Source: an uncultured Ruminococcus sp.
GTDB taxonomy: Bacteria > Bacillota > Clostridia > Monoglobales > Monoglobaceae
Length of the DNA stretch: 42,630 nt
NCBI GenBank assembly: GCA_902797885.1
Contig: CADBUP010000153.1
Location: 1 to 42,630, forward strand
Direction: 5' to 3'
The notes below the pieces were generated by a model. It was not told where the DNA came from. It saw only the letters and a program-made list of their open reading frames with translations, and did no database searches. Both the position numbers and the translations under genes were made by a program. Positions 7,430 through 28,815 of the stretch are shown in pieces; the stretch's first letter is position 1, and each line of letters starts with the position of its first letter.

Positions 7430-7569
7430 CGTATTCCTCCTTACGCATATTTTTGATATTGAATATATCGGCCGTACAAAACGTTTGGTTTTATACACCC
7501 TTTATTATTTCACCTTTATCATTCTACCATTCTTATATGCGTTTGGGAATTGCTTATTTTTTAATCAGT

Positions 7570-12526: not shown

Positions 12527-14182
12527 CACCCGCTCCTGCTTGTTCACGTCAACATAACCGAGCGTTGTGATTTTAAGCGACGGTATCACCGCAAGGCTCA
12601 CAAACGCCATTGTCATAAGCGGGGCTGAATTCTCGGGTATGCCCAGTTCTTTCATTGCCGCTCTTAGTGCTTCGTCAAGCCTTGCCGCCTCCTCGGCGGA
12701 ATTATCGGACATAAGCCCCGCAATGGGCAGCGGAACATCCGCAATGGGCTTTCCGTCCGCAACCGCGGTACAGCCGCCCTCCATGTCGATTATGTGGTTT
12801 GCCGCATACGCCATATCTGCTTCGTTGGTTCCTATAACTATAATGTTGTGCGAATCGTGCGAAACCGATGAGGCGATAGCACCTCTTTTTAATCCTATTC
12901 CCGAGATATATCCCACGCCGATATGCCCGGTACCATTATGCCTTTCTATTACCGCAATTTTAAGTATATCTCTGTCTACGCTTATTCCACGGATTTCGGT
13001 TATCTCTTCTTCGGTCAGAAGTTCACCCTTAATCGTCTTTATAACGCGGCATTTTCCGCACGGAGCATTAAAATCCGCGGCGGATAACTTTTTCACATTA
13101 AAAGTATTTCTGACTGCGGCGTCAAGCCTTGAATCGATTTTTATACTCGGCTCAATCAAAAGCTTTCCGTTCTCGGCGGTTTTTATTCCGCCGCAATATA
13201 CCGTTTCGACTCTCACATCGTCAAGACTGCTAAAAACGGCTAAATCCGCCTTATACCCCGGCGCAACCGCCCCGATGTTCTTAAGTCCGAAACATTCCGC
13301 CGCTTGAATGGTCGCCATTCGTATTCCGACAATCGGAGACTTTCCGAGTCTGACCGCACGGCGTATAATCGCGTCTATATGTCCGTCATTAATTAAATCA
13401 GCAGGGTGTTTGTCATCGGTGACCAAAAGACAGCGGCGATTATACGGCTCATCGAACAGGTCAATCAATCCCTCAAGATTTCTCGCCGCCGTTCCGCGGC
13501 GAATCATCAGCCATTGCCCGCGGCGGATTCGCTCCGCCGCCTCATTAAATTCAGAACACTCATGGTCGGTCTTGATTCCCGCGGATATGTATGTGTTTAA
13601 ATCTCTCCCCGTGAGCATAGGGGCGTGACCGTCAATATTCTTGTTAAGTAAGACCGCGTCCCGAAGCTTTTTATGAACGGCTTTATCTCCGCCGATTACC
13701 CCCGGATAGTTCATTACTTCAGCAAGCCCGAGCACCCTCGGATTTGAATAATACGGATACAAGTCCTCGGCCGAGAGTATGGCTCCCGACTCATCAAAAT
13801 TCGTTGCCGGAACACAGGAGGGGAGCATAATATAAACGCTCAGCGGAAGTCCCTCACTCGCCGAGAGCATATAGTCGATTCCGTCCGTTCCGCAGACGTT
13901 CGCGATTTCATGAGGGTCGGCAACAACAGCCGTTGTTCCGTGAGGGAGGCAGACACGCGCGAATTCAGCGGGGGTAAGCATTGTGCTTTCGATGTGAATA
14001 TGACCGTCGATAAAGCCGGGGCATATGTACCTTCCCGACACATCATCAGCACGGTCGGCGTCAGAATCAGTATAAAAATTACCTACACCGATAATGCGAT
14101 TGTCTTCTATCAGCACATTTGCTTCCTCAATTTCGTCCGTGAACACATTTATAACCTTTCCGTTTTTAATTAATGTTCGCAT
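12473..14182 (-). CDS. ade: Adenine deaminase (Ade, amidohydrolase superfamily)
   Basis: Hydrolyses adenine to hypoxanthine and ammonia for purine salvage. The 569-residue protein starts with the beta-sandwich region followed by GFIDGHIHIEST, the first metal motif. It continues with ADPHEIANVCG and a C-terminal domain including SHDSHNIIVIG and the glycine-rich GGCTAVADG, all characteristic of the Ade (COG1001) family. ATG at 14182 is preceded by GGGAGGTG at good spacing; a 17-codon upstream extension has no such site. It has its own promoter (14217-14245). No purine riboswitch fits in the 90-nt gap to the GH10 gene. The 3' end overlaps spoIVFB on the other strand by 54 nt. Confidence 0.93.
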   Translation of the reverse strand: MRTLIKNGKVINVFTDEIEEANVLIEDNRIIGVGNFYTDSDADRADDVSGRYICPGFIDGHIHIESTMLTPAEFARVCLPHGTTAVVADPHEIANVCGTDGIDYMLSASEGLPLSVYIMLPSCVPATNFDESGAILSAEDLYPYYSNPRVLGLAEVMNYPGVIGGDKAVHKKLRDAVLLNKNIDGHAPMLTGRDLNTYISAGIKTDHECSEFNEAAERIRRGQWLMIRRGTAARNLEGLIDLFDEPYNRRCLLVTDDKHPADLINDGHIDAIIRRAVRLGKSPIVGIRMATIQAAECFGLKNIGAVAPGYKADLAVFSSLDDVRVETVYCGGIKTAENGKLLIEPSIKIDSRLDAAVRNTFNVKKLSAADFNAPCGKCRVIKTIKGELLTEEEITEIRGISVDRDILKIAVIERHNGTGHIGVGYISGIGLKRGAIASSVSHDSHNIIVIGTNEADMAYAANHIIDMEGGCTAVADGKPIADVPLPIAGLMSDNSAEEAARLDEALRAAMKELGIPENSAPLMTMAFVSLAVIPSLKITTLGYVDVNKQERVSVDVAESDPNPTVGEGV

Positions 14183-14272: not shown

Positions 14273-15595
14273 TTATATAAAAAGTTTTTTAAACTGTGTT
14301 GCTCCTTTTTTTAGTTTAACGGTCTCCTTAACTTTTTTATCTCCAAAGCGAATCGTGATGTCATACTCGCCGAAGAAGCCCCTGAACGCGGCAAGTCCAT
14401 CAACCGCGGGAACGGTAAGTTCGGTTGTCCACTCTGTGTTAATAAGCTTATTTAAAGTCTTATATGCGGCCTTTTCGTTATAATCACCGTCAATCAGACC
14501 TGTTGAAGGAAGATTCTCGTCAAACGCAACCCTCTTAGTAGTTAGAACTCCGTCATCGGGCATATTCCACCATGTGATTCCCGTAACGGACGGGTGCGAG
14601 AAGCACACCTTATAAAGCCGCTCAGCCGCAAGAGCCTGAAGCTCCTCGTCAACCTCGCCCCCGAATTTTGACGGAATACTTACCTCGGAAACATTTATCG
14701 GTTTTCCGAGCGTCGCATATGTATCGAGGACGTCATAGAGCATTTCTGAGTTATAGACCTTTTGAGGGCCGTTATCGCCTAAGTGACACTGCATACCGAT
14801 TTCATCGATTCTTGCGCCACGGTTTAACAAATCCTTGATATTCAAATAATATCCGCTGTACTTACCGCAGAATTCGGTAAAGGATGCCTGAACTGTGTCG
14901 TTCAGAATGAGCGTATTGTTCGGGAAATATCTGTTTGCCAAATCAAAAATCCAAAGGCAATAGTCATCTTCGGGAACAATATACTTTGCGTTGGGATTTC
15001 TTCTGTCTCTCATATACACATCATAAATACGCGACGGCTCGTTCACAACGTCAAAGCGTTCAAAAACGTCCTTGTACCTCTCTGAAATTTCTTTAAACCT
15101 TTTTTCTATATACGGCTTTAATTCAGAAAAGTCATCGGGAAGCCATCTCGGAATAAACTCATGCCAGAAAAGCGGATGTCCCTTCATTCTGATGTTATGC
15201 TTTAAGCAAAATTCCATTACTTTATCGGCGGGCGGCCGTCTGTAGACCTCTGTTTTTGTGTCGGCGTCATATCTGAGAAGTCCTTTTTCCGGTTCTGTTC
15301 CCTCCCAATAAAGCGGTACAGCCGCACTATTAAAAAGCTTGCAGAATTTTTCCTCAAAAAGTCTGTTTCTTTCTTCGTCGTCATATTGACCGAGCATAAA
15401 AATATTTGCCCCAAAGTTAAAGTCAATATTCTTTAGCTTAACTTCAACATTGGCATTCTCTATTTTATTTCCCTCTTTGTCAAACAGAAGTAACTCAAAG
15501 TTACCTTTTCGATTTCTTTCTATATCCTTATCGGCACGCTGATTAAAAACACTCTCACCGTCTTTTATTGCCTTATACACTACGTTTTCTTGCAC
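14273..15595 (-). CDS. Intracellular glycoside hydrolase family 10 (endo-xylanase-like)
   Basis: A retaining beta-glycosidase of the GH10 (beta/alpha)8 fold, predicted to act on xylan or xylo-oligosaccharides. The 440 residues contain GHPLFWHEFIPRWL (139-152), the acid/base glutamate E186 in DVVNEP, and the likely nucleophile E304 in NVSEVS. About 60 residues precede the barrel and about 75 follow it as a beta-rich tail (PAVDGLAAFRGFFGEYDITI). There is no signal peptide, so it is probably cytoplasmic and works on imported oligomers. The start is GTG at 15595, since AAGGGGG lies 8-9 nt before it. It is divergent from an AraC regulator that likely controls it. No transporter for its substrate is adjacent. 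Confidence 0.85.
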   Translation of the reverse strand: MQENVVYKAIKDGESVFNQRADKDIERNRKGNFELLLFDKEGNKIENANVEVKLKNIDFNFGANIFMLGQYDDEERNRLFEEKFCKLFNSAAVPLYWEGTEPEKGLLRYDADTKTEVYRRPPADKVMEFCLKHNIRMKGHPLFWHEFIPRWLPDDFSELKPYIEKRFKEISERYKDVFERFDVVNEPSRIYDVYMRDRRNPNAKYIVPEDDYCLWIFDLANRYFPNNTLILNDTVQASFTEFCGKYSGYYLNIKDLLNRGARIDEIGMQCHLGDNGPQKVYNSEMLYDVLDTYATLGKPINVSEVSIPSKFGGEVDEELQALAAERLYKVCFSHPSVTGITWWNMPDDGVLTTKRVAFDENLPSTGLIDGDYNEKAAYKTLNKLINTEWTTELTVPAVDGLAAFRGFFGEYDITIRFGDKKVKETVKLKKGATQFKKLFI

Positions 15596-15626
15596 TATAA
15601 ATACCCCCTTCAAGGTTTTTTATTTA

Positions 15627-15736: not shown

Positions 15737-16492
15737 ATGTTTTTTACCTGTGATAATCTATCTGTTGAAATAGTTGACGTTCTTGAATTCTATCATGAGA
15801 ACACCCACAATGTCGGAAGCCGCCGCTTTAACTCGCTCTCTCTTCGTCTCTCCTCCGACACCGAGATAATCACCGGCGGCACAAGCCGGCATATATCGGA
15901 AAACACAATCGGGTTCTTCCCGTCACACCGTCCATACAAAAGAGTATCGAAAAACGAACATTTAATATCAATAAATTTTATACTGTATAATCAAAGCTTT
16001 GATGAGCTTGAATTCCTCAAGCCGAAAAATGCCGGCGAACTAAGCCGCCTGTTTATCGACATCCTTGAAATTTCAAGAAAGAAATCGTGCGGCTATAGGT
16101 ATGAACAATTAAAGATTTTTTATGAGATAATGCGCCTTCTGTATATTGAAGCCGTAAGTGACACAATAAATCCTCAGGACGAGGGTATGAATGACATAAA
16201 AAAATATATAGACTCAAATTTTTGCGAGCCGAGCCTGAGCGTTGCTGACCTCGCAAGGTCAGTATATATGAGCGAGGTCACCTTCAGAAAAAAATTTCAC
16301 GCCGCATTCGGAAAGTCCCCGAAACAGTATATCATCGATAAACGAATTGAATATGCCATATCTCTGTTATGCTCACAAAATCTAAAAATTTCCGAAATAG
16401 CGAAACTGACCGGCTTCACAAACGAAAAATATTTCAGCACCCTCTTTCGCCGAAGATATTCTATGCCGCCGTCGCAATATGTGAAAAATTAA
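15737..16492 (+). CDS. AraC family transcriptional regulator
   Basis: A 251-residue regulator. The N-terminal ~140 residues form a sensor region without a clear ligand signature. The C-terminal ~100 residues carry two helix-turn-helix motifs: LSVADLARSVYMSEVTFRKKF, then ISEIAKLTGFTNEKYFSTLF, ending with the usual MPPSQYVKN. ATG at 15737 follows GGAGG. Being divergent from the GH10 gene, it most likely responds to a plant-polysaccharide-derived sugar and controls that gene. It converges with etfBA with only 21 nt between them and no terminator visible. Confidence 0.9.
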   Translation: MFFTCDNLSVEIVDVLEFYHENTHNVGSRRFNSLSLRLSSDTEIITGGTSRHISENTIGFFPSHRPYKRVSKNEHLISINFILYNQSFDELEFLKPKNAGELSRLFIDILEISRKKSCGYRYEQLKIFYEIMRLLYIEAVSDTINPQDEGMNDIKKYIDSNFCEPSLSVADLARSVYMSEVTFRKKFHAAFGKSPKQYIIDKRIEYAISLLCSQNLKISEIAKLTGFTNEKYFSTLFRRRYSMPPSQYVKN

Positions 16493-16513: not shown

Positions 16514-17890
16514 TTAAAATTCAGCGACTATTCCATAGTCGGCGTAATCGAAAATACGCGCGTCTTTATCGGGATTGATTGCGATTATCGTTCCGCTGTC
16601 CTCTATCGCACAGGTATGATGAACGGCGCCGCTTATCCCGACAGCAATATAAATCTTCGGTGCAACCTGTCTTCCGGTCAGCCCCACCTGTCTCTCATAC
16701 TGCATTTTTCCCATATCGACAAGCCCGCGTGAGGAACAGACCTCCGCGCCTATTTTATCCGCAAGAGAATAAAGCTTATCTATTTTATCCGAAACACCGC
16801 GGCCGCCCGAAACGATAATATCCGCGCTCGTCGATTCTGTTCTGACCGTTGCCATCTGCGGCTTTGTGACACATTTTATTTTAGCTGTGATATTTCCGCT
16901 CCGCGCCGGGCGGTACATATATAATATTTCGCCGTCCGTTTCAATGCTTGTGCAATCGGCACAAAGTCCCGTTTTCAATATTGCCGCGGCAATAGGGGCG
17001 TTATTTCTTCCCCAAAAATCCGAATTCCACAAAATTGCATCAGGCATATCTTTTTCAGCCATAGCGGCAATCTCTCTCGGGTCAAGCTCATCCGTTACGG
17101 TCAGTTTTTCCGCCATGGGGCGCGCGATTTCAGCCGCTTTTTCCCCCACCGCCCAAACATTTTTAAGCCTCTCTCCGCTGTACCGTTGCTTTTCTCTTCT
17201 ATCGTCATCGCGGCGGCTCTTTAAGTCTTCAATCAAAGGCAGAAATTCATCAAACGAAATAAACTTACAGCTTCGCCTTCCACGCTCGTTTTCAAAGGTC
17301 TTTAAGACCCTTGTCGGAGAACCGTCAAGGCCACAGCGATTCGGGTCACAATTTATATCTGAGTTATCCCAATGTTCAACCTCTCCCTCTCTCGAAAAAA
17401 TACTCGGAAAGCGGAGAAAATATCCTCTCTCGACCGTCACAAGAGCGGGCGTATCAATACGCACCTCTCCCATACGGGTCTCGGCAATCATTTTTCTTTC
17501 ATTCGTCTTATCCGTTTTATCCGTCTTAATTTTAATTGTGCCGGCTATCAGAGAAATACCTAAGTTTTGTGAAAGCATCGGCCCGACCTGAGCGGTGTCG
17601 CCGTCAACACTCTGCCTTCCGCAAAGAATCATATCGGCATCAAGCTTTTTTATCGCCCTCTCAAGTATATAGGCGGTCGCAAGGGTGTCGGAACCCGCAA
17701 AAATCTTATCGGATAAGAGTATCACTCTGACCCCAAGCCGTGTCAGCGGCTTTAAAGCCTCCGCAGCGGATTCGGGACCCATTGATAAAACCGTTACATC
17801 ACTTGACAGGGTAAGCGCACATTCCAAAGCAGATTCGTCAAACGGATTTATCTCTCCGCCACACACCTTGACGCAAACAACTGTTTTCAT
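16514..17890 (-). CDS. Fused electron transfer flavoprotein, beta-alpha (EtfB-EtfA)
   Basis: One 458-residue chain holds both ETF subunits, usually two genes totalling close to 600 residues. Residues ~1-200 are EtfB-like (INPFDESALE, VTVLSMGPE, AGSDTLATAYIL, ILCGRQSVDGDTAQVGP); the first nucleotide-binding loop is shortened. Residues ~245-458 are EtfA-like, ending in the FAD-binding domain (RQVGLTGRQVAPKIYIAVGISGAVHH, then INPDKDARIFDYADYGIV). It should carry electrons from a flavin oxidase; the GlcD-type oxidase and Fe-S protein upstream in the operon are the obvious partners. ATG at 17890 follows GGAG. An unusual 82-nt gap with a hairpin separates it from the FGGY kinase gene. The fusion is seen in the sequence; bifurcation is inference. 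Confidence 0.85.
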   Translation of the reverse strand: MKTVVCVKVCGGEINPFDESALECALTLSSDVTVLSMGPESAAEALKPLTRLGVRVILLSDKIFAGSDTLATAYILERAIKKLDADMILCGRQSVDGDTAQVGPMLSQNLGISLIAGTIKIKTDKTDKTNERKMIAETRMGEVRIDTPALVTVERGYFLRFPSIFSREGEVEHWDNSDINCDPNRCGLDGSPTRVLKTFENERGRRSCKFISFDEFLPLIEDLKSRRDDDRREKQRYSGERLKNVWAVGEKAAEIARPMAEKLTVTDELDPREIAAMAEKDMPDAILWNSDFWGRNNAPIAAAILKTGLCADCTSIETDGEILYMYRPARSGNITAKIKCVTKPQMATVRTESTSADIIVSGGRGVSDKIDKLYSLADKIGAEVCSSRGLVDMGKMQYERQVGLTGRQVAPKIYIAVGISGAVHHTCAIEDSGTIIAINPDKDARIFDYADYGIVAEF

Positions 17891-17915
17891 AGGAACAACT
17901 CCTCTCTAAAAAGAC

Positions 17916-17968
17916 TAAGGCTGATATAAAATCGTTCACATCCCTGCGGATAATTTTAATCAGCCTTA
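17916..17968 (-). terminator. Hairpin between FGGY kinase and etfBA (attenuator or partial terminator)
   Basis: TAAGGCTGAT and ATCAGCCTTA pair perfectly over 10 bp. Directly inside, TAAAAT can pair with ATTTTA, giving a long stem with one bulge. On the minus strand the stem is followed by GTCTTTTTAG. It sits in the only large gap of the operon, so it probably lowers or regulates etfBA expression or stabilises an RNA end. Confidence 0.5.
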
Positions 17969-17972
17969 TATC

Positions 17973-19445
17973 CTAATATTCTCCGTTATATATATCCTCT
18001 AAGGCCCTTTGAACAGCCTTATACTTATTGAAAACAACGTGATATTTCTCGGTATTTTCAAGGTTCGGAATTGCCTGAGACACTATCTCGTTACAGATTT
18101 CAACCGCCTTCCGACAGCTTTCAAAAACCCCGGCAGAAACACCGGCAAGCATTGCCGAGCCGAACGAGGAATCGGCATATTTCATCTCAACAAGTCTCAA
18201 GTTCAGCGCGTCCGAAATCATCTGCCGCCAAAGCGGACTCTTGCCGCCGCCGCCGATTATTACCGCGCTGTCGTTATGCGGAATATTTATATTTTCAAGC
18301 GTCCGCATACAATCAAGCATAGACATAGCCACGCCCTCTAACACCGCCCGTGTAAAATGCGCCTTTGTATGAGACGCGCGAACGCCGACAAAGTCAGCGC
18401 ACAAATTCGGATTTGCATACGGAGTAAGCTCACCGTTGAGATACGGATGGAATATAAGTCCGTCAGCGCCTATCGGAATTCTCTCTGCCATCATATCAAG
18501 CTCTCGGTAATCGCCGCCGAATGTATCCCTAAACCATCGGTACGACGCCGCACAGGACTTTGTTGCCGTTCCCGGATAGAAAAGACCGTCTGTTATATGC
18601 GAATAATTTATCAGATTGGTGTCAGGATATGGCCTGTCAGTAATGACGCATATTCTGCCTGCGGTTGCAAGCTTAAGCGTCATCTGACCCTTGCTTACCG
18701 CTCCTGCGGCAAACACCTCCATAACCGTATCGGTCGTTCCGCAAAGCACAGGCGTTCCTTCGGCAAGGCCGCTCAGCTTCGCCGCCTCGGACGTAACCCT
18801 TCCGACTATATCGGCCGGCTTTACAAGCTTTGGCATCATCCGTGTGTCTATATCAAGAATTCCGCAGAGCTCTTCGCTCCACTCCATCTTGTTTATATCA
18901 AACATCATTGAGCCTTCGGCCTCGATGTAATCGGTCACATAGTCGCCGGTAAGACAATGTCTGACATAGTCCTTAGCAAACATAATCCTCTTTGTTTTTT
19001 TCCAGTTCTGCGGCTCGTTATTTTTAATCCACATCAGTTCGGGAAGAGACCATATAGTATCGGGCTTGTGCAATACCTGTATGTCGATTATGTCCGAAAA
19101 ATTTTCTTTAAGATATTTGACCTCGGCCATACTTCTCGTGTCCGTCCAATAAATTGCAGGGCGGATAACATTAAAATTCTCATCCATTATAACAGCGGTA
19201 TGAGTCGCCGCGTCAAGCGAAACAGCGCAGATATTCTCCGCTGAAACGCCGCTCTTTTTAAGAACGCCGCTTATGTTTTTGACCGTTGCATCGACCCAAT
19301 CTCTCGGATTCTGCTCCGCATACCCCGGTTTGGGGTAACTCGTCGGATATTCACAAGTACTTGTCGCACAGATTTTTCCGTCAGAATTAAGCAAGGTCGC
19401 CTTTGAAGCGCCGCCGCCGAAATCAATACCCAATAAATACTTCAT
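17973..19445 (-). CDS. FGGY-family carbohydrate kinase (xylulokinase-like)
   Basis: An ATP-dependent sugar kinase of the ASKHA fold, 490 residues, the usual FGGY length. It starts with LLGIDFGGGASKATLLNSDG (phosphate-1 loop), has DAATHTAVIMDE and YWTDTRS, and an ATP-site glycine cluster IIGGGGKSPLWRQM near 410. Overall it is closest to xylulokinase-type members, but the neighbours do not point to plain xylose use. A ketose or polyol is the likely substrate, perhaps the product of the FucI-fold isomerase encoded first in the operon. ATG at 19445 has GAGG 8 nt upstream and begins 17 nt after iolB. Confidence 0.88.
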   Translation of the reverse strand: MKYLLGIDFGGGASKATLLNSDGKICATSTCEYPTSYPKPGYAEQNPRDWVDATVKNISGVLKKSGVSAENICAVSLDAATHTAVIMDENFNVIRPAIYWTDTRSMAEVKYLKENFSDIIDIQVLHKPDTIWSLPELMWIKNNEPQNWKKTKRIMFAKDYVRHCLTGDYVTDYIEAEGSMMFDINKMEWSEELCGILDIDTRMMPKLVKPADIVGRVTSEAAKLSGLAEGTPVLCGTTDTVMEVFAAGAVSKGQMTLKLATAGRICVITDRPYPDTNLINYSHITDGLFYPGTATKSCAASYRWFRDTFGGDYRELDMMAERIPIGADGLIFHPYLNGELTPYANPNLCADFVGVRASHTKAHFTRAVLEGVAMSMLDCMRTLENINIPHNDSAVIIGGGGKSPLWRQMISDALNLRLVEMKYADSSFGSAMLAGVSAGVFESCRKAVEICNEIVSQAIPNLENTEKYHVVFNKYKAVQRALEDIYNGEY

Positions 19446-19462
19446 TTTTCATACCTCGAATG

Positions 19463-20251
19463 TTATTTGTTAAGGTGAGCGTGTTCCTCATCTGTTGTCA
19501 TATAAAAACCTCTGTCCTCACCCGCCATAATCCACAGATAATAGTTGTCATATCCCGGCGCGGTATGGAATGGGTGATAACCTCTCGGAATTTCAACAAA
19601 ATCACCGTTTTTAACGGTATAGGTTTCGTCGATGTCACCCTCCATTGTATATACACGCTGAATTCCGAAACCTTGCGGCTTTTTGAATTCATAGTAATAG
19701 ATTTCTTCAGTCTCGGCCTCGGTCGGCATATTGTCATCATCATGCTTGTGCGGAGGATAGCTTGCCCACTGGCCGCCCTTAACAAATGCCTCGCCTATAT
19801 AAAGCATTTTTGATTTTACTCTCTCATCAAGAATAAAGTGGGCCTCTCTTTCCCATCCCGGCTTACCCAGATTCTTGATAATAACGTCCTCAGGGTTAAT
19901 TATAGCCGGTTCAAATGTTTCACAGCAGGGCGACTTTGATACGCAAATTTGAACCTCGCCCCTTGCCTTGATTGAATACGGAGTGTTCGCCGGTACATAA
20001 ATACAGGTTGCCGCCCCGCCAAACACGTCTTTACGCCTTCCGACGTTTTCAAACTTAAAGTTCTCGCCGTATACATCACACTTACCGCCGAGAATAACCA
20101 GCGCATACTCCTTATCCTTCTCGCGGTATGATTTTACATCACCGTCCGCAAGACGAAGCATATCAATTTCCACCTTTTGACAAGCGCTGTTTTCTCTTTT
20201 ATAAATTTCAGACTTGCCGAACTTTTTATTCCAGTTTCTCTTATAGTTCAT
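19463..20251 (-). CDS. iolB: 5-deoxy-glucuronate isomerase family protein (IolB-like)
   Basis: A bicupin of the KduI/IolB family, 262 residues. IolB converts 5-deoxy-D-glucuronate to 5-dehydro-2-deoxy-D-gluconate in myo-inositol breakdown. Seen here: the metal-site motif YPPHKHDDD near 180, EEIYYYEF, and the second cupin end GYHPFHTAPGYDNYYLWIMAG. ATG at 20251 is preferred because AAGGAG lies 10 nt upstream; a GTG three codons earlier is adjacent to that site. It overlaps the PfkB gene by 11 nt. The next two inositol steps (IolC-like kinase, IolJ-like aldolase) are encoded immediately upstream, but iolG, iolE and iolD are absent from the window, so the true substrate may differ. Confidence 0.85.
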   Translation of the reverse strand: MNYKRNWNKKFGKSEIYKRENSACQKVEIDMLRLADGDVKSYREKDKEYALVILGGKCDVYGENFKFENVGRRKDVFGGAATCIYVPANTPYSIKARGEVQICVSKSPCCETFEPAIINPEDVIIKNLGKPGWEREAHFILDERVKSKMLYIGEAFVKGGQWASYPPHKHDDDNMPTEAETEEIYYYEFKKPQGFGIQRVYTMEGDIDETYTVKNGDFVEIPRGYHPFHTAPGYDNYYLWIMAGEDRGFYMTTDEEHAHLNK

Positions 20252-21146
20252 TATATCCACGCTCCTTCAAGAAATTTTTAACCTCATCAAACCCGGGTAC
20301 GCTCTCACGCGCGCCCACACCTGTACATTTAAGCGCCGATACCGCGCTTGAAAAAATACAGCATTTTTTATAATTATAACCCATCTCCGCCGCAAATGCA
20401 AACGCCCCGTGAAAAACGTCGCCCGAACCGTTTGAGTCCACAGCGTCAACCGGGAAGGCAGGGTAATGCCACACCTCGGTTCCGTCATACATAACGCCGC
20501 CTTGCTTTCCGTCGGTGATGATGACTACCTCGGGCGAATACTTCTCATACAGAAGCCTTGCCGCGTCCTCAATGTTTTCGGCATTTGTGTGCCCTAAGGC
20601 AAATTCCGCCGACGGAATCAGAATATCGGCATAAACAAGAAGCCTTTCGACTCCGTCATACAATCCGCCGGCATCATACAAGACCTTTGTCCCGTTCTCA
20701 GCCGCAGCTTTCGCGGCGTCAACAGCGGCGTCAAGGTCGTTTCCGTCAACCATCAATATATCAGATGCCGCGACGGCCGACCTTTGTTCATCCGAAAGCA
20801 CAAGCGGCGGAAGCATTCCCTTATCAAAAACACAGGTTCTCGACGCCGTCTTTTTGTTCAGCCATATAAAAGAAGTAAACGCCGCTCCTTCCAAAAGATT
20901 TATAAGGCTTGTGTCAACGCCGTAGCGTTTCATATCATCGACCAAAAACTGACCCATCGCGTCCCTGCTTAAATTCCCGATAAACGCGGCTTTTGCGCCG
21001 AGCCTCGCCGCGGCGCAAAGGCCCGTTGCGCACGGTCCTCCGCCGCTTATCTTAACCGCATCGGCACGCATTTTTGTATCCTCTCTCGGCATATCCGAGA
21101 GAGTTATCAGCGTGTCATACACATTTGCTCCGATTCCTATAATCAT
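20241..21146 (-). CDS. PfkB-family carbohydrate kinase
   Basis: A ribokinase-fold sugar kinase of 301 residues. It has the N-terminal substrate motif ISGGGPCATGLCAAARLG (33-50) and the C-terminal anion-hole motif DSNGSGDVFHGAFAFA with catalytic D243. Between iolB and a class II aldolase it occupies the slot of IolC (5-dehydro-2-deoxygluconokinase), but the family is too broad for a firm substrate call; IolC is often somewhat longer. The ATG overlaps the aldolase stop (ATGA, 4 nt), so the two are translationally coupled. Confidence 0.85.
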   Translation of the reverse strand: MIIGIGANVYDTLITLSDMPREDTKMRADAVKISGGGPCATGLCAAARLGAKAAFIGNLSRDAMGQFLVDDMKRYGVDTSLINLLEGAAFTSFIWLNKKTASRTCVFDKGMLPPLVLSDEQRSAVAASDILMVDGNDLDAAVDAAKAAAENGTKVLYDAGGLYDGVERLLVYADILIPSAEFALGHTNAENIEDAARLLYEKYSPEVVIITDGKQGGVMYDGTEVWHYPAFPVDAVDSNGSGDVFHGAFAFAAEMGYNYKKCCIFSSAVSALKCTGVGARESVPGFDEVKNFLKERGYNEL

Positions 21147-21970
21147 ACTCTGTTCCTTGCTCCCAAAAGGTCAATCTTAGTAAGTGCAAATTTCTTTACG
21201 CTTTCGATTGCATCCTTCATAAACAAATCTATCGCCACTAAGTCTCTCGATGTTTCAAAAACCTTATCGAGGAACGAATAACAAACATCCGTACCAAAGT
21301 TAATCTTTCTGATTCCGGCATCAACCGCCGCCTTTAACTGGTCATCGGGAACACCGCTTCCGCCGTGAAGAACGAGGTGAACGTCTGTTGCCTTATGTAT
21401 ATCCGAAATTCTCTGAATATCCAGCTTCGGCGCTTTTTTATATCTTCCGTGAGCTGTTCCAACCAAAATAGCAAGAGCACATACTCCCGTCTTATCAACA
21501 AACTCAACCGCCTCATCGACCTTTGTGAACTCCTGCATCTCGGCGTCGTTTACGCTTCCGATATGACCAAGCTCGCCCTCAACGGGAATTCCCACAGCAT
21601 CGCACATCTCAACAACCTCTTTTGTCGCCTTCTTATTCTCTTCAAACGGAAGATTAGAGTTATCAATCATAATTCCGCTCGCGCCGTATCTGAGCGCTCT
21701 TATAACCTCTGTCTTGCCGGCGCCGTGGTCAAGGTGGAAGCAAACAGGAACGCTCGCCCTCTTAGCGGCAGCCAAAACAATCGGAGATACAAAGTATCCC
21801 TCTTCGTTAGTAAAAAGTCTTGAATAACTCTGGATAATCACAGGCGATTTTGCTTCCTCCGCCGCTCTGATGATTCCCATAACCGTCTCCATATTATACA
21901 CATTGAATGCAGGGATGGCATATCCGCCTTCCTCCGCCATGTCAAGAATCTGTTTTAAGTTTATAAGCAT
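21143..21970 (-). CDS. Class II ketose-bisphosphate aldolase (FbaA/IolJ/GatY type)
   Basis: A zinc-dependent aldolase of 275 residues, expected to cleave a ketose phosphate to DHAP and a three-carbon aldehyde. The catalytic D81 and zinc ligand H82 lie in FHLDHGAGK; other family motifs are VEGELGHIGSV, VGTAHGRYK (zinc His) and VLHGGSGVPDD (zinc His, DHAP phosphate loop). Length fits IolJ, GatY and short FBA members. The start overlaps the end of the Fe-S gene by 10 nt, with GAGGAGG inside the latter's last codons. Next to PfkB and IolB-like genes, an IolJ-like role (yielding malonate semialdehyde plus DHAP) is plausible. Confidence 0.88.
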   Translation of the reverse strand: MLINLKQILDMAEEGGYAIPAFNVYNMETVMGIIRAAEEAKSPVIIQSYSRLFTNEEGYFVSPIVLAAAKRASVPVCFHLDHGAGKTEVIRALRYGASGIMIDNSNLPFEENKKATKEVVEMCDAVGIPVEGELGHIGSVNDAEMQEFTKVDEAVEFVDKTGVCALAILVGTAHGRYKKAPKLDIQRISDIHKATDVHLVLHGGSGVPDDQLKAAVDAGIRKINFGTDVCYSFLDKVFETSRDLVAIDLFMKDAIESVKKFALTKIDLLGARNRV

Positions 21971-23049
21971 TCTGAGATAACCTCCTCTACCGTCTTTAAG
22001 TCAATACCGTCAGGCTTAACCGAAAGCATCATCTCATATTCGGCCGGACACTCGGTTACAACGGTCTCCGCACCCATATTTCTTGCGTTAATCCAGCGTG
22101 ACTGTGCCACTTCTTTCATAACATCGGGCATATACTCATTCATAATAAGGTTTCCGGCAAGCATAGTATCCTTTCCGAATATAAGCATTTCGCGGTTCTC
22201 TCCGCACGCCTTTATAATATCTCTTATCGGTTCAACCTCGTCAAGATCTCTCGAAAGCAATGCCGAATCCTGAATCGTGTACGCCTTATTTGACTTTTTA
22301 ACCTTGAGTGTTCCGTTCTTAATCAGCTCAGCCATGTATGAAGTGAAGGTAACAACGTTTGCGCTTAAATCGATACCCCACTCTTTATATTCGCGAAGGA
22401 ATACCTTAGCATCCGCAGGGTCATAGCATACAACGGTCTTAAAGTTAAGCACCTTTGCACAGTTTTCCATAACTCCCTTTGATTCTGCCGTCTTTCCGAT
22501 CAGGGTTTCAATCGCATATCCGCTGTCAGGCTCGTTCTTCAAAACCGTGAAGCTTACCCCCGCCTTTTTCAAAAGCCTGATTGCTTCTATCGCCGACTTC
22601 GGGCTTTTATATATCGCATCTCTGCCCAGGAACAAAAGTGTATCGGCCGTCTCGGGAAGCGAGTCGATTTCCGCTTTAAGCTCTGAATCAACCTCGGCTA
22701 TGCCATAGACGTTTCCTGTATTTTGAAGATTCTCAATCAGCTTCATTATGTAAGGAGGGGTCTTACCCTTCATAATCAATTCGCTTCTGACTTCCTTTAC
22801 CACCTTAACCGGATCCCAGCCGGTCACACACTCTTTTGTGCAGGCGCCGCAAAGAGCACATTCATAGACGTTATCGGCAACACCCTCGAGCGGCTCTGCA
22901 TCTCTCTCAACGAGTGAAAGAGCAAGCATTCTCGCACGGGCGGTATTTCTCTCCTGGCCTGTCACGTTTCCTATCGGACAGATATGTCTGCACATCCAAC
23001 AGAAACGACAGCTATCGATAATTTCTTTACTTTTTTGTGAAATAAGCAT
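21961..23049 (-). CDS. Two-cluster Fe-S protein of the GlcF/HdrD-like group, CCG motifs lost
   Basis: A 362-residue electron-transfer subunit. Two 4Fe-4S sites are clear: C14-C17-C20-C24 and C64-C67-C70-C74. The C-terminal half has the overall layout of the GlcF/LutA/HdrD cysteine-rich repeats, ending in GAETVVTECPAEYEMM, but I find no CCG motif in either repeat; the expected position of the last one reads LIFGKDTMLAG. So the ferredoxin part is intact while the special cluster-binding half looks degenerate. It lies 14 nt behind the FAD oxidase gene and most likely carries that enzyme's electrons to the fused ETF. Confidence 0.85.
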   Translation of the reverse strand: MLISQKSKEIIDSCRFCWMCRHICPIGNVTGQERNTARARMLALSLVERDAEPLEGVADNVYECALCGACTKECVTGWDPVKVVKEVRSELIMKGKTPPYIMKLIENLQNTGNVYGIAEVDSELKAEIDSLPETADTLLFLGRDAIYKSPKSAIEAIRLLKKAGVSFTVLKNEPDSGYAIETLIGKTAESKGVMENCAKVLNFKTVVCYDPADAKVFLREYKEWGIDLSANVVTFTSYMAELIKNGTLKVKKSNKAYTIQDSALLSRDLDEVEPIRDIIKACGENREMLIFGKDTMLAGNLIMNEYMPDVMKEVAQSRWINARNMGAETVVTECPAEYEMMLSVKPDGIDLKTVEEVISECL

Positions 23050-23063
23050 ATTTAAGTACCTCC

Positions 23064-24488
23064 TTACAGTCCAAGTTTAAACGGATTCATAATTCCGTTC
23101 GGGTCAAGTGATTTCTTCAGTCCTTCAAACACCTGCATAGCGGGTCCGTACTGTTCCTTCATAAGCCGGCCAAGCTTGATTCCGACACCGTGATGATCGT
23201 TTACAACGCCGCCGTTAGCAAGAGCGGTTCTTACGCCGCAGCTCCAGATAGCGTTATGAAGTCTGAGCGCCTCATGCGGATCTTCGGGAACATCATCGAT
23301 TATAAATCTGTCATAAATCATACAACCCCACTCATACCAGTGCGAGAAATGTGCTATAAACCGCGCCATCGGGAAGTTGGTTTCAACGGCCTTCTTCATT
23401 TCCCAATAAATTTTTTCAATCTTATCATAAGGTGCGATTGTATCCATTGTTCCGAAAAGCTGAGGAAGATCCATCATATTTCCCGGATAGAAGAAAGTTA
23501 TCTTCTCCTTCCACCACTTTTCGCCGTATTCAGAGCCTAAATCCTCCGCTCCGTACTTAGCAAAGGTCTCCATCATAATCTTGTGTTCAACATCTACTAT
23601 TTCCTTAACGCCTTCAATCGCGATGTTCATAAACGCGCCCTTTTTCTCAACGCCGACAATTTTCTTGATTAGAGTTGAGGTTTCGGCTTCATCATAAAGA
23701 CGCATAACCGATGGTTTAAACTTCTGAAGAAGCTCCTTGCCCGCTTTAAAAGCGTCGGTCATATTATGGAACAAAAATCCTCTGAACTGACGTGATTCGG
23801 GCTGGTCATATATTCTCATCTGAGCCTTTGTCATAACACCGAGAGTACCCTCAGAGCCAATGAATATCTGATTGAGGTCGGGACCCGCCGCGTGCTTCGG
23901 CGCAGGAGATGTGTTGATTATATCACCGTTCGGAAGAACCACCTCCATACCGAGTACCATATCGTCAATCTTTCCGTACTTGGTTGAAGAAACGCCGATA
24001 CCTCTGTGCGCAAGAAATCCGCCGACCGTTGAGCAGGTAAGCGAACTCGGATAGTGCATTGTCGCATATCCCTTCTCATTCGCCGCCCATTCGATGTGCT
24101 TATAAATAGAACCCGTTCCGCATTCTATGTACATACTGTCGGTGTTAACGTCATAAATCTTATTCATACGCTTGGTATCGAGAAGGATACCTCCGGCAAC
24201 GGGAAGCGCGCCGCCCTGCGTTCCGCCGCCGCCGCCCCATGTGGTAACGGGAAGCTTATAATAATTCGCTATCTTAAGCACCGCCGAGGTTTCCTTTGCA
24301 TCCTTCGGCGAAACGATTATATCAGCCTCGGGCATTCTCTCGCCCCTGTCCGCCCACATTCTCGAAAGCCAGAAATAATCGACTCCGTGAGTAAGCTTGT
24401 CAATCTCACGCGTCGAACAATTCTCTCTTCCGACAGCGTCCTCAAATTCAGATAAAATCATATCCATCATAAAACTGTTTAACTGCAT
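23064..24488 (-). CDS. FAD-linked oxidase of the VAO/GlcD family (AGPS-like)
   Basis: A 474-residue flavoprotein with an N-terminal PCMH-type FAD-binding domain (about 45-220: VSPKDAKETSAVLKIANYYKLPV, TTWGGGGGTQGG, then GSEGTLGVMTKAQMRI). The FAD-oxidase C-domain ends with NDHHGVGIKLGRLM and SLDPNGIMNPFKLGL. The histidine-rich NDHHGVG is reminiscent of alkyl-DHAP synthases as well as D-lactate/glycolate dehydrogenases. With the following Fe-S protein and the distal ETF fusion it resembles ETF-linked lactate dehydrogenases such as the Acetobacterium LctBCD complex. The likely reaction is oxidation of a 2-hydroxyacid or a related alcohol; the substrate is unknown. ATG at 24488 follows GGAGG. 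Confidence 0.88.
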   Translation of the reverse strand: MQLNSFMMDMILSEFEDAVGRENCSTREIDKLTHGVDYFWLSRMWADRGERMPEADIIVSPKDAKETSAVLKIANYYKLPVTTWGGGGGTQGGALPVAGGILLDTKRMNKIYDVNTDSMYIECGTGSIYKHIEWAANEKGYATMHYPSSLTCSTVGGFLAHRGIGVSSTKYGKIDDMVLGMEVVLPNGDIINTSPAPKHAAGPDLNQIFIGSEGTLGVMTKAQMRIYDQPESRQFRGFLFHNMTDAFKAGKELLQKFKPSVMRLYDEAETSTLIKKIVGVEKKGAFMNIAIEGVKEIVDVEHKIMMETFAKYGAEDLGSEYGEKWWKEKITFFYPGNMMDLPQLFGTMDTIAPYDKIEKIYWEMKKAVETNFPMARFIAHFSHWYEWGCMIYDRFIIDDVPEDPHEALRLHNAIWSCGVRTALANGGVVNDHHGVGIKLGRLMKEQYGPAMQVFEGLKKSLDPNGIMNPFKLGL

Positions 24489-24532
24489 AATTTTTCCTCC
24501 TTATTTATCTGTTATTTTCCGTTATTTTCTGA

Positions 24533-25936
24533 TTACTCTTCTATCGGGTCATAGTCAAGCCCCGGAATATACTTACAAAATTCTTCAAGTATCTCGGCAT
24601 AGTTTCCGTATGCCTCTGTCATATGGTGAATGTACGGGCCGTTTATCAGTTTTTTCTCTATGCCCGGTAAATCCTTAAATTCCGCCCAAAGGTACGTGCC
24701 GAATGTATGCGGGCCGTCGGTTGTCTTAAACTCGCCGCCGAGAAGAGTATACTTACCCTCATCGCCCTGGAAACGCGCGATTGTATACCTTCCGTCTTTC
24801 GCCTTAAACGACGGTTTTGTGTTAAACAGCCTTGCCTTCTCATTCTCAGCCTTTATCGAATACGGGAACGGGCCGCAATGCCACAAAAGCTCGGCGTTCT
24901 TGTTCTCGGGGTGTCTTGTCGTGAACTCGCCGAACAGCGGAGCCGCCTTTCCCCTTGAAGCACATCTCAAAAGCGCACAGGTGATTGCACCGTGAACATC
25001 CGATTCGCACGCAACAATATATCCCATATCATAGAGAATACTCATAGCGAGACATGGGTTTGAGCCGAGGGCAAGAGGCATAGCCGTCCAGCACTCTGAT
25101 GCAAGAACATCCGCACCCGTTTCTTCAAACACATCAATATAAGCATAAACAAATGCGGCGAGCTTCCTTATATCATCGTCGGACATTCCCGAAACATCAT
25201 ACTTTGACTTAATTTCTTCAATATCCTTTGAAAGTTCGCTTGCCTTACCTATTAAGACCTTTCCGAACTTTTCCTCAAACTGAGCGATATTATAGTTATT
25301 CATATTAATTCCGAACTTTTCAACGAGCTCAAGTTCGTTATACATAACGCTTTTAAACGGGGTAAGTCTCGTTCCGACCTGAGTGACATTAAGATTTTTA
25401 AAATTCTTAACCATTGTGACAACTGAAAGGAACTTTTCAAAGCCCTCTTTGAAAATATTGCTGTCCACCGGACAATTTTCTATGTAAGAAAACGGAATGT
25501 GATACCTGCGAAGCTGCTTGCTTATCGCGAACAGTCCGCACTGTGAATCGGTATAACGCGTACCGTCCGCTTCAAAAACAGTATCCTGCGGCCCCCACAA
25601 AAGAACGGGAACCCCCATCGCTTTCGCAAGCCTTCCGCACGCCTCTTCGTTTCCGAAGTTACAGTTAATAATAAAAATCGCGTCAACTTTTTCTTCTTTT
25701 AAATAGGAACAGACCTTATCACAGTCGGCATTGTCATAGAAGATACCCATATCGTTGAGCCATTCAAGGTCAACATACTCGGTATTTTCATCCCGAAAAT
25801 TATTTTTTATATAATCTAAAACAATGTTTTTTCTTTCCACACCCTTTGCAGGCTCAAAAATGCCCTTGCGTGTGGCAAAATCGCCCAAATTCCTGATATC
25901 CGGAATCAGTCCGATTTTTATTTTATAGTCTAACAT
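24533..25936 (-). CDS. L-fucose/L-arabinose isomerase-fold protein
   Basis: A 467-residue protein whose C-terminal part matches the fucose/arabinose isomerase fold: ECWTAMPLALGSNPCLAMS, then IVACESDVHGA with a probable metal-binding glutamate and aspartate, and a late histidine in YIHHMTEAYGNY. The N-terminal half (IGLIPDIRNLGDFA, VDAIFIINCNFGNEEACG) forms the Rossmann-like domains of these enzymes. It should interconvert an aldose and a ketose, but it is shorter than FucI (about 590 residues), so the substrate should not be assumed to be fucose. It is the first gene of the operon; ATG at 25936 follows GGAGG, and one operator copy overlaps the leader just before that site. Confidence 0.8.
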   Translation of the reverse strand: MLDYKIKIGLIPDIRNLGDFATRKGIFEPAKGVERKNIVLDYIKNNFRDENTEYVDLEWLNDMGIFYDNADCDKVCSYLKEEKVDAIFIINCNFGNEEACGRLAKAMGVPVLLWGPQDTVFEADGTRYTDSQCGLFAISKQLRRYHIPFSYIENCPVDSNIFKEGFEKFLSVVTMVKNFKNLNVTQVGTRLTPFKSVMYNELELVEKFGINMNNYNIAQFEEKFGKVLIGKASELSKDIEEIKSKYDVSGMSDDDIRKLAAFVYAYIDVFEETGADVLASECWTAMPLALGSNPCLAMSILYDMGYIVACESDVHGAITCALLRCASRGKAAPLFGEFTTRHPENKNAELLWHCGPFPYSIKAENEKARLFNTKPSFKAKDGRYTIARFQGDEGKYTLLGGEFKTTDGPHTFGTYLWAEFKDLPGIEKKLINGPYIHHMTEAYGNYAEILEEFCKYIPGLDYDPIEE

Positions 25937-26118: not shown

Positions 26119-26955
26119 ATGAAAAAGACAGCATTAAAAATAAAAATGCTCTATCCCGAGATGGGAAAGGCCGAGAAAAAAATTGCCGATTGGATAATTG
26201 AAAATCCAACGGGGCTCATTCCGCTTTCTATAACAGAGCTGGCGGAAAAATGCGGCTGCGGAGAGGCAACAATCGTCCGCTTTGCAAAGCGGCTTGACTT
26301 CGGCGGTTATCAAGAACTTAAGATTTCTCTCGCCCGAGAGGAAGGTTCAAGCGATATGACCGACGGAATCACCGCAGAGGATTCATGCTTTGAAATCTTT
26401 GAAAAGGTTTCAAACGACATATATTGTTCGCTTGAGCTGACAAAAAAAGCGATAGATAAGGACGCTCTTGAACAAGCGGCGAAAAAGATTTTAACTGCAC
26501 AGCAGATTTTAATATACGGTCTCGGAAATTCAGCAGCGGTCGCACTTGACTTTGAGCATAAGCTTCTCCGCGCCGGTCTGCGCGCCGCGGCATTCTCCGA
26601 TAATCATATGCAGGCCATAACCGCTTCGCATCTCACCGACAGGGATGTTGCCATCGGCATATCACATTCCGGCTCATCAAAGGATATAGTTGACGCGCTT
26701 AAAATCGCGCGGCTTCGCGGGGCAACCGCAATCTCTATAACAAACAAGGGTAAATCACCTATCACAAAGGTTTCGGACATCACTCTGTTTACCGCCTCAA
26801 ACGAGACAAAATACACGATATTGGGATTGAACTCAAGAATATCACAGCTTTCGATAATCAGTTCAATCTATTATTATATCGTATATCACCGCGAGGGTAT
26901 ATCATCTGAGGCTATCGAAATGACCGAAACAGCACTTCAGAATAAAAAATATTGA
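26119..26955 (+). CDS. RpiR/MurR family transcriptional regulator with SIS domain
   Basis: A 278-residue regulator: an N-terminal helix-turn-helix of the HTH_6 type (about 1-77, including LSITELAEKCGCGEATIVRFAKRLDFGGYQE, split here by normal helices) and a sugar-phosphate-binding SIS domain (about 115-250: LIYGLGNSAAVALDFEHKL, GISHSGSSKDIVDAL). Such proteins sense phosphosugars and usually repress neighbouring catabolic genes. ATG at 26119 follows GAGG. It is divergent from the sugar/redox operon, and three palindromic sites lie in the shared 182-nt region, so it probably controls both directions and responds to a phosphorylated intermediate of that pathway. Confidence 0.92.
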   Translation: MKKTALKIKMLYPEMGKAEKKIADWIIENPTGLIPLSITELAEKCGCGEATIVRFAKRLDFGGYQELKISLAREEGSSDMTDGITAEDSCFEIFEKVSNDIYCSLELTKKAIDKDALEQAAKKILTAQQILIYGLGNSAAVALDFEHKLLRAGLRAAAFSDNHMQAITASHLTDRDVAIGISHSGSSKDIVDALKIARLRGATAISITNKGKSPITKVSDITLFTASNETKYTILGLNSRISQLSIISSIYYYIVYHREGISSEAIEMTETALQNKKY

Positions 26956-26973: not shown

Positions 26974-27873
26974 ATGAATTTCATACCTCTTTCAAAATAC
27001 CTTGATTCCTTTCATAAGGTTTATGAGCTGCCCGGATGCGACTGTTGTATCTATGAAAACCACAACAACGTTTTCAGACGCAAGTATGGCTTCTCGGACG
27101 CAAAAAAGACAACGTTCAAGGATTTATACTTTATGCATTCGGCGGCAAAGCTTATCTGCTGTACCGCTATTGTCCGGCTTTCGGAAGAAGGCAAGCTCTC
27201 CTTAAGCGACAGGGCTGACAAGTACATTCCCGGCTTTGGAAACGACTCAACCGTTGAACAGATGCTTAGAATCTATTCAGAAACACTTGATTTTGAACAG
27301 CATAAGTTCAACCATAAAAATTTAAGCAGGATTGTTGAAGCATTGACTGGACTTCCGCTTGACGAGTATCTGCACAGGTATATTTTTGAGCCGCTTCATA
27401 TGAAAAACACCTCGTTTTCCATAAACGATTCCAACCGGAAGCGAATCAGTACACAATACTTTTTAACCGATGACGGAGAGAGACTTAAGTCCGATAAAAG
27501 CTTTGAGGCTCTGCTTTCCAAAAACGAAGGCTGTATAATCACAAGCGTAGGCGACTATGCGCGTTTCGCTGAAACTCTGTGCAACAAGGGCGTGTCAAAG
27601 CACGGCTTTCGGCTGCTTTCCGAAGAGGGAACGCTCAATCTTATAAACAACATTATATATAATGAAACAACAGAAAAAAATTGCTTTGTCTGTATCGGAT
27701 ATAACGGAAGCCTTGTATCAATCGATATAGATAATAAGGTGACAATAATATACGCTCAGCACGTCAAAAACTGCGGAACTCTTCAAATGGAGATTTACCC
27801 AAAGCTTCGCGAGCTGGCTTATGACTGTTTGGGCGTACATAAATGGTCTAAAGGCTTTAACGTTTTTCCTTGA
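26974..27873 (+). CDS. Beta-lactamase-fold serine hydrolase (class C/esterase group), catalytic Tyr not conserved
   Basis: A 299-residue protein of the serine beta-lactamase/penicillin-binding-protein-like family (PF00144). The SxxK motif is present as S56-A-A-K59, and the following helix (LSEEGKLSLSDRADKYIPGF) is typical. The second catalytic motif, normally YxN before an (I/L)(I/V)E helix, aligns here with residues 109-114, which read QHKFNH, so the general-base tyrosine is missing. No signal peptide is visible, unlike true beta-lactamases. It may be a binding protein or use altered chemistry. It starts 18 nt after rpiR with AAGGAG upstream, in one transcript with rpiR and the DMT transporter, so it is probably linked to the same sugar system. 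Confidence 0.75.
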   Translation: MNFIPLSKYLDSFHKVYELPGCDCCIYENHNNVFRRKYGFSDAKKTTFKDLYFMHSAAKLICCTAIVRLSEEGKLSLSDRADKYIPGFGNDSTVEQMLRIYSETLDFEQHKFNHKNLSRIVEALTGLPLDEYLHRYIFEPLHMKNTSFSINDSNRKRISTQYFLTDDGERLKSDKSFEALLSKNEGCIITSVGDYARFAETLCNKGVSKHGFRLLSEEGTLNLINNIIYNETTEKNCFVCIGYNGSLVSIDIDNKVTIIYAQHVKNCGTLQMEIYPKLRELAYDCLGVHKWSKGFNVFP

Positions 27874-27927: not shown

Positions 27928-28815
27928 ATGGGTTATATATTTTTACTTACAGCTCTCGTCGCAGGGGCAACAAAGGGATATTGCGGCAAAAAGACAAGCG
28001 GTTTTGTAAACGAATATAAGGATGCTATGCTTGCAAACTCGATAAGGATGGTTTTCTGTACACTTATCGGACTTTGTATGGTTATTTTTACAAGCGGAAT
28101 AGGCGACTTACATATAAACAGTACGGTTTTTCTGATAACCCTCCTTTCGGGAACGGCAAATTCAGCCTTTGTTGTTTTCTGGCTCATATCGGTTAAACGC
28201 GGTGCTTATATGATGCTTGACGTGTTTTGTATGTTAGGAATACTGATTCCTCTTATCGGCTGTGCTATATTTTTCGGCGAAGCCATTGAGCTTAATCACA
28301 TTATCGGTATAGCCGTTCTGCTTGTCGCGGTATGTATTATGTGTTCTTACAACAATTCAATTAAGAGTAAGATGACTCTCGCTTCATTTATCCTGCTTCT
28401 GCTCTGCGGAATATCAAACGGCTTTTCGGATTTTTCGCAAAAGCTTTTCGTAAAGCTGACCGATAACGTTTCGATAGCTGTATTTAACCTATATACATAT
28501 TTGTTCTCAGCCATAATACTTATTGCCTGCTACTTCTTCTTTGCCGGCCGCTCTGAGAGCAAGACCGTTCCGAACATCAAGCCAATCTTTATTTATATAC
28601 TCATTATGTCGGTTTGTCTGTTTCTGTACTCATACTTTAAGACCCTTGCCGCACAGCACCTGTCATCGGCACAGCTCTATCCCCTTGCGCAGAGTGGCTC
28701 GCTTATATTATCTACAATAATGTCAGCCGTACTCTTTCACGAACGTTTAAACTGGAAGTGCATTGTCGGCATAGCGATGTCATTCGGGGCTTTGATTATT
28801 ATTAACGTATTATAA
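27928..28815 (+). CDS. EamA/DMT superfamily transporter
   Basis: A 295-residue integral membrane protein with about ten hydrophobic segments arranged as two halves (1-135 and 150-295), the drug/metabolite transporter layout. The substrate is unknown; as the only transporter near the divergent sugar operon it might move the substrate or a by-product. An in-frame stop directly precedes ATG 27928, so the start cannot be earlier. AAGGAG lies about 14 nt upstream, a rather long spacing. Co-transcription with rpiR and the serine-hydrolase gene is likely; a group of hairpins follows the gene. Confidence 0.82.
   Translation: MGYIFLLTALVAGATKGYCGKKTSGFVNEYKDAMLANSIRMVFCTLIGLCMVIFTSGIGDLHINSTVFLITLLSGTANSAFVVFWLISVKRGAYMMLDVFCMLGILIPLIGCAIFFGEAIELNHIIGIAVLLVAVCIMCSYNNSIKSKMTLASFILLLLCGISNGFSDFSQKLFVKLTDNVSIAVFNLYTYLFSAIILIACYFFFAGRSESKTVPNIKPIFIYILIMSVCLFLYSYFKTLAAQHLSSAQLYPLAQSGSLILSTIMSAVLFHERLNWKCIVGIAMSFGALIIINVL

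Follow-up and report, generated by a model that had tools for sequence, protein, structure and literature searches.

The window that we analyzed is a stretch of 42,630 nucleotides from an uncultured Ruminococcus sp. (contig CADBUP010000153.1). On its minus strand, from position 25936 down to 16514, lie eight co-directional, tightly packed open reading frames (ORFs) with gaps of at most 82 bases and several overlaps. The initial annotation had described an eight-gene operon here. The first gene (24533..25936) encodes an aldose-ketose isomerase of the AraA/FucI fold, a distant relative of the sulfoquinovose isomerase SftI/SqvD. Then come a VAO/PCMH-type FAD enzyme from the alkyl-DHAP-synthase (ADPS) branch, which we will call GlcD (23064..24488; FAD_binding_4 and FAD-oxidase_C in Pfam); a GlcF/HdrB-like electron transfer subunit of the two-[4Fe-4S] ferredoxin type (21961..23049; Fer4_8 in Pfam); a class II DHAP aldolase of the FBA/GatY type (21143..21970; 294 bits to PF01116); a PfkB sugar kinase, likely a ketose 1-kinase (20241..21146; PF00294); and a KduI/IolB-family isomerase, probably for an aldehyde-acid (19463..20260; PF04962). 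The last two genes encode a xylulokinase-like FGGY kinase (17973..19445; 386 bits to TIGR01312 vs. a cut-off of 380, with XylB as the top match in the PDB) and a fused EtfB-EtfA electron transfer flavoprotein (16514..17890; two stretches that match PF01012, and PF00766). The profiles bear out the two kinases and the single class II aldolase of the initial annotation. Its oxidase, Fe-S protein, and ETF are present as families too, but the ETF is one fused protein and GlcD is not of the lactate dehydrogenase type.

Divergent from the operon is an RpiR-family protein (26119..26955, plus strand; HTH_6 and SIS in Pfam), which adjoins the operon in 32 of the 80 loci described below and is probably its regulator. 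Two probable accessory genes follow on the plus strand: a serine hydrolase of the beta-lactamase fold (26974..27873; PF00144), which also adjoins the operon in loci L058, L061, L068, and L126, and an EamA/DMT transporter (27928..28815; PF00892), which is found again in L058 and L068. The planctomycete loci have a different EamA transporter downstream of the operon. On the other side, a GH10-domain protein (14273-15613, minus strand) and a divergent AraC regulator (15737-16492, plus strand) adjoin the operon; these are not conserved with it elsewhere.

We scanned the genomes of 84,980 species with the isomerase and kept 80 loci, many of them on cut contigs. The isomerase and GlcD occur together in 62 of the 80, and the other components were found in most or many of these 62 loci, with many contigs cut: the Fe-S protein in 56, the aldolase in 53, PfkB in 52, IolB and FGGY in 46 each, and the ETF in 38. 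There are at least six gene orders, and the blocks Ald-PfkB, FucI-Ald-PfkB, and GlcD-FeS-(IolB-FGGY)-Etf recur across several of them. Because so many isomerase loci also hold GlcD, in many gene orders, the gene set is not a chance arrangement; the neighborhood analysis that the initial annotation had called for thus shows a conserved system. The hosts include Clostridia, Erysipelotrichaceae and other Bacilli (Bacillota), Planctomycetia, and a metagenome-assembled genome labelled Cloacimonadota. Within the order of the source genome, ten genomes have the isomerase at 48% identity or above, and the whole set follows wherever the contigs are long enough; there, GlcD is 87-91% identical and the isomerase 48 to 77% identical. 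Over the wider set, GlcD is 81-91% identical in most loci with the full operon and 60-72% identical in the most distant ones.

The joint conservation of two isomerases and two kinases with a single aldolase would fit the use of two sugars from one plant or host disaccharide, a 6-deoxyhexose and a uronate, by two isomerase-kinase pairs that share a promiscuous DHAP aldolase. Glycan-degrading genes adjoin many loci (GH2, GH3, GH31, GH43, GH10, and a GH110-type beta-barrel protein), but they are too varied to indicate a substrate, and no single glycoside hydrolase accompanies the operon consistently. Also, the FucI gene is missing from both L168 and L179, and L179 has no PfkB gene either. We consider this arrangement unlikely, though possible.

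The initial annotation knew of no pathway that uses this set, and our search of open-licence papers likewise found no published pathway with this combination of genes. The eight genes appear to comprise an undescribed route that cleaves an unusual sugar to a pair of three-carbon pieces, with an ETF system handling one member of the pair.

The isomerase has no match in Pfam, and searching the PDB with its sequence gave nothing relevant. The sole named family that it matches is SftI (NCBIfam), at 111 bits vs. a cut-off of 700, which places it outside the sulfoquinovose isomerases SftI/SqvD. Its AlphaFold model (pLDDT 93) predicts a whole-length member of the L-fucose isomerase/arabinose isomerase superfamily, and aligns to the arabinose isomerase AraA with Z 34.6 (VIA) over 442 residues and to the fucose isomerase FucI with Z 28 over 434 residues. 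The FucI fold that had been proposed is right at the level of AraA/FucI, although the model is closer to AraA. Residues E281, E311, D313, H353, and H437/H438 are invariant across 24 relatives; judging by the ligands of AraA, they are where a metal site would be expected.

The architecture of isomerase, ketose kinase, and DHAP aldolase is that of sulfoglycolysis (sulfo-EMP and sulfo-EMP2), and the isomerase-kinase-aldolase block resembles those pathways (PMC9594981, PMC11968277) but fails the test for a sulfoquinovose isomerase. In particular, sulfo-EMP2 (SqvD/SftI, SqiK, SqiA, and SqvB/SftX) shares with the operon an isomerase of the FucI superfamily, a ketose kinase, and a PF01116 aldolase that forms DHAP (PMC9594981). 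In some relatives, the operon includes an aldose 1-epimerase (mutarotase family) and a DUF4867 protein, which corresponds to SftX/SqvB (PMC11968277), and this counts for a pathway that resembles sulfoglycolysis. Degradation of sulfoquinovose itself, by a variant of sulfo-EMP, would also account for SftI and sulfofructose kinase being the named proteins closest to the isomerase and to PfkB, respectively; the top PDB matches for PfkB are the sulfofructose kinase YihV and ribokinase, tied. But of the residues that we take to contact the sulfonate in sulfofructose kinase (K27, N109, and R138), only the lysine is aligned in PfkB in a pairwise alignment, and the Asn and Arg are not. Furthermore, PfkB contrasts with the PfkA-family kinase of sulfo-EMP2, we recognized no sulfoquinovosidase beside the loci, and the additional genes of the operon (IolB, FGGY, and GlcD/FeS/ETF) have no counterpart in sulfo-EMP2, so that IolB and FGGY would be left without a role. 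Given the score of the isomerase as well, we think that sulfoquinovose is very unlikely to be the substrate.

The aldolase has the motifs HLDHG, GELGH, GTAHG, and LHGGSG, and its PDB matches include YdjI and AgaY. The initial annotation equated IolB, PfkB, and the aldolase with the lower myo-inositol route (IolB-IolC-IolJ), which would here need 5-deoxyglucuronate from another source. The families are indeed those of the iol operon (KduI/IolB, PfkB, and an FBA-type aldolase), the IolB protein scores 235 bits against TIGR04378 (cut-off 205), and type A loci have the order Ald-PfkB-IolB. But the subfamilies differ: PfkB scores just 94 bits against the IolC profile TIGR04382 (cut-off 300), which is not the score of an IolC-type 5-dehydro-2-deoxygluconokinase, and the operon's IolB falls in a clade apart from those of inositol operons (see below). 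In other gene orders, IolB and PfkB are not adjacent. The absence of iolD and iolE, which had been noted for the window, extends to the source genome (98% complete): the best profile hits in it are 235 bits for iolD (cut-off 715) and 36 bits for iolE (cut-off 290), and it has no MMSDH-like aldehyde dehydrogenase. We rejected the lower inositol route on these grounds and consider it most improbable.

As for the IolB-like protein, passing TIGR04378 does not separate inositol from uronate operons, because proteins from Uxa operons also pass, and clostridial iol operons have IolBs at just 110-118 bits. Across the phylum, the scores are bimodal, with 324-376 bits for the IolBs of a Bacillus-type inositol operon and 200-244 bits for the operon's IolB and many others. 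At least ten IolB-like proteins from the latter group are encoded in operons with tagaturonate reductase (683 bits vs. 359), where their neighbors include an altronate dehydratase-type protein and TRAP transporters; no UxaC-like gene was seen near them in the stretches that we read. (IolB-like ORFs adjoin tagaturonate reductase in L164, L165, L167, L170, L176, and L225, so TIGR04378 names proteins of hexuronate operons too.) In E. coli, KduI has been proposed to be a hexuronate isomerase (PMC3578941). The proteins of hexuronate operons that TIGR04378 names probably isomerize uronates, and its equivalog cut-off probably over-calls. The IolBs of our operon group in a separate clade (54 of 55 rows, with support of 95/81), and the remaining row is from an operon whose contig is cut. 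This clade is distinct from the IolBs of both Uxa operons and clostridial iol operons. The closest studied contexts of this branch are uronate operons (UxaB/UxaA). Judging from its sequence relatives, the operon's IolB is likely an isomerase for an aldehyde-acid, and a uronate-type acid is one candidate.

These relatives also raise the possibility that the operon replaces UxaC-UxaB-UxaA: a hexuronate would be isomerized, 1-phosphorylated, and split into DHAP and tartronate semialdehyde, IolB would convert the latter to hydroxypyruvate, FGGY would phosphorylate it, and GlcD/FeS/ETF would reduce the product to 3-phosphoglycerate, possibly with bifurcation. Kinase-aldolase steps would thus stand in place of the reductase-dehydratase-KDPG steps of Uxa/Uxu operons, with which our operon shares an IolB of the same wider branch. 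Consistent with this, UxaC and UxaB/UxuB-type genes were not found in the source genome. Among 51 genomes of the order, 10 have the operon, and 2 of these encode UxaC together with UxaB/UxuB, as do 27 of the 41 that lack the operon (Fisher p = 0.013; p = 0.043 inside the genera that hold the operon), but this is suggestive only, as the genomes are incomplete and related and the counts are not independent. For UxaC alone, the association in these 51 genomes was not significant (p = 0.10). The lack of UxaC beside the IolB relatives in the Uxa operons that we read, the stereochemistry of FBA-type aldolases, which fits glucuronate or galacturonate, and the affinity of ADPS-type enzymes for DHAP-like phosphates also agree with a hexuronate, as does a TRAP transporter inside the related gene set of L179, which suggests that this relative uses an acidic substrate. 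However, two of the operon genomes retain the canonical pathway, the lactate racemase and LctD of some relatives (see below) are left without explanation, and a test for the absence of KDPG aldolase failed, as the source genome contains a gene of this family. In open-licence papers, we found no name for a kinase or a 1-phosphate of tagaturonate or fructuronate. On balance, we view a dedicated hexuronate pathway as possible but doubtful.

In its 6-deoxysugar reading, the initial annotation took GlcD for a lactate-type dehydrogenase, and this label is wrong. Among solved structures, GlcD is closest to alkyl-DHAP synthases (E = 4e-41), with LDHD behind them (1e-33). It has the RLxD arginine and the HHG motif of the ADPS branch (as RLYD and DHHG), and it lacks the HxGDGNxH/EHG metal site: where LctD-type proteins read GHAGDGNLH and GEHG, GlcD reads SHWYEWG and DHHG. 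In LDHD, the manganese ligands are His398, His405, and Glu442 (PMC10589216). The LctD-type genes of L094 and L115 do have HxGDGNxH and EHG. By its motifs, GlcD is an ADPS-type flavoenzyme without the metal site of D-2-hydroxyacid dehydrogenases, and because this site is missing, we rejected a role as lactate dehydrogenase. Separate pairs of an ADPS-like flavoenzyme and an Fe-S protein, with the flavoenzyme 33-34% identical to GlcD, occur in mixed contexts in L212-L216; the pair in L215 adjoins a glycerol-3-phosphate-oxidase-like gene and glycerol kinase.

The Fe-S protein is a Fer4 dicluster protein, with CxxCxxCxxxC motifs at 14-24 and 64-74. The PDB matches of the ETF include CarE/CarD, Bcd-Etf, and LctBC, which are ahead of mitochondrial ETF; the best matches are bifurcating ETFs, and it is plausible that an oxidation is coupled to the ETF. 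(In L126, a nitrite/sulfite reductase-type Fe-S protein is encoded at 12088-13011, directly 3' of the operon's ETF; this is a single case.) The LctBCD system of the Acetobacterium type, with LarA, is similar in that it combines a VAO flavoenzyme with an ETF, and some relatives have true LctD and LarA within the operon or at its end, but our operon has a GlcD without the manganese site, a separate Fe-S subunit, and fused ETF subunits. Together with a dedicated Fe-S subunit and a fused ETF that may be bifurcating, an ADPS-type flavoenzyme might catalyze a redox step on a sugar-derived three-carbon piece, in place of an NAD-dependent aldehyde dehydrogenase or keto-acid reductase. We find this conceivable rather than probable. 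Because AdhE and a ProA-like protein (window 4811-7498 and G000:C59) are the only proteins of the source genome with an aldehyde dehydrogenase domain, the flavoenzyme could fill the missing aldehyde dehydrogenase step. Against this, we know of no ADPS-type enzyme in anaerobes that oxidizes aldehydes to acids.

A link to lactate comes from relatives of the operon. In L097, a lactate racemase (LarA; 595 bits vs. an equivalog cut-off of 460) is encoded between the Fe-S protein and FGGY. In L115, this same place holds four genes, for EtfB, a long EtfA, an LctD-type dehydrogenase, and LarA, and in L094 the same four follow the Fe-S protein and continue until the locus ends. L099 and L108 have lactate permease genes next to them. 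Because of these genes, an acid of the lactate class is likely an intermediate or product. The 6-deoxysugar route via lactate that had been suggested is thus supported by the relatives' genes, though not by GlcD. Overall, what stands of the first interpretation is a conserved and undescribed gene set with a link to lactate, while the lower inositol reading and the lactate-type GlcD do not.

We tentatively favor, with less than even confidence, a catabolic pathway similar to sulfoglycolysis, whose substrate would be a substituted hexose or a disaccharide made up of two of them. From the families and neighborhoods we infer an order of steps. The AraA/FucI-fold enzyme would convert the aldose to a ketose, PfkB would phosphorylate it at C1, and the resulting ketose phosphate would be split by the class II aldolase into DHAP and a three-carbon 2-hydroxy-aldehyde. 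GlcD, the Fe-S protein, and the fused ETF might then oxidize this aldehyde to a 2-hydroxy acid of the lactate class, which in some relatives may be racemized and oxidized by true LarA and LctBCD or exported via lactate permease. By analogy, IolB and FGGY would be a second isomerase-kinase pair, whose aldehyde-acid (uronate-type) partner would feed the same aldolase. This fits the contiguity, across several gene orders, of the isomerase, aldolase, and PfkB as one block and GlcD-FeS-IolB-FGGY-Etf as another. Against it, the assayed relatives of the operon's enzymes are too distant to fix a substrate, and lactate genes were found in only about seven of the 62 loci, from about two lineages, among 414 non-core ORFs of at least 200 amino acids.

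A 6-deoxy-hexose and a hexuronate are the candidate substrates, as is a disaccharide that combines them; sulfoquinovose and inositol are disfavored. The lactate genes favor a 6-deoxyhexose, while IolB, the TRAP transporter, and the missing Uxa genes favor a uronate; the disaccharide would employ all eight genes. Since FBA-type aldolases make 3S ketoses, D-gluco or D-galacto substrates (glucuronate, galacturonate, D-quinovose, or D-fucose) suit the operon better than L-fucose or L-rhamnose. Operons for these two L-sugars have the same logic of isomerase, kinase, and aldolase, including an FGGY kinase, but they use FucA or RhaD instead of a PF01116 aldolase, and PfkB, IolB, and the flavoprotein genes are extra here. 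L-rhamnose as the main substrate is also disfavored because the source genome encodes the rhamnose isomerase RhaA elsewhere, so this role would be redundant.

The operon is widespread in gut bacteria of herbivores, poultry, and termites, but databases list its components under inositol, xylose, and glycolate names, and it is therefore misassigned in metabolic models of these communities. To resolve its function would show which abundant sugar of the gut it is for, provide the first role of a bacterial ADPS-type flavoenzyme that is coupled to an ETF, and correct the annotation of IolB in uronate operons. If the proposed redox step is correct, then it would conserve energy as reduced ferredoxin in a DHAP-forming sugar pathway that is common to gut Clostridia, Bacilli, and Planctomycetes.

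Finally, pairs of NagA with divergent NagB-like proteins, which are below the Pfam threshold or have no Pfam match, are encoded in L097 (6687-9746), L098 (5934-8813), and L052 (11431-13444). These pairs recur near the isomerase and near some of the uronate operons.
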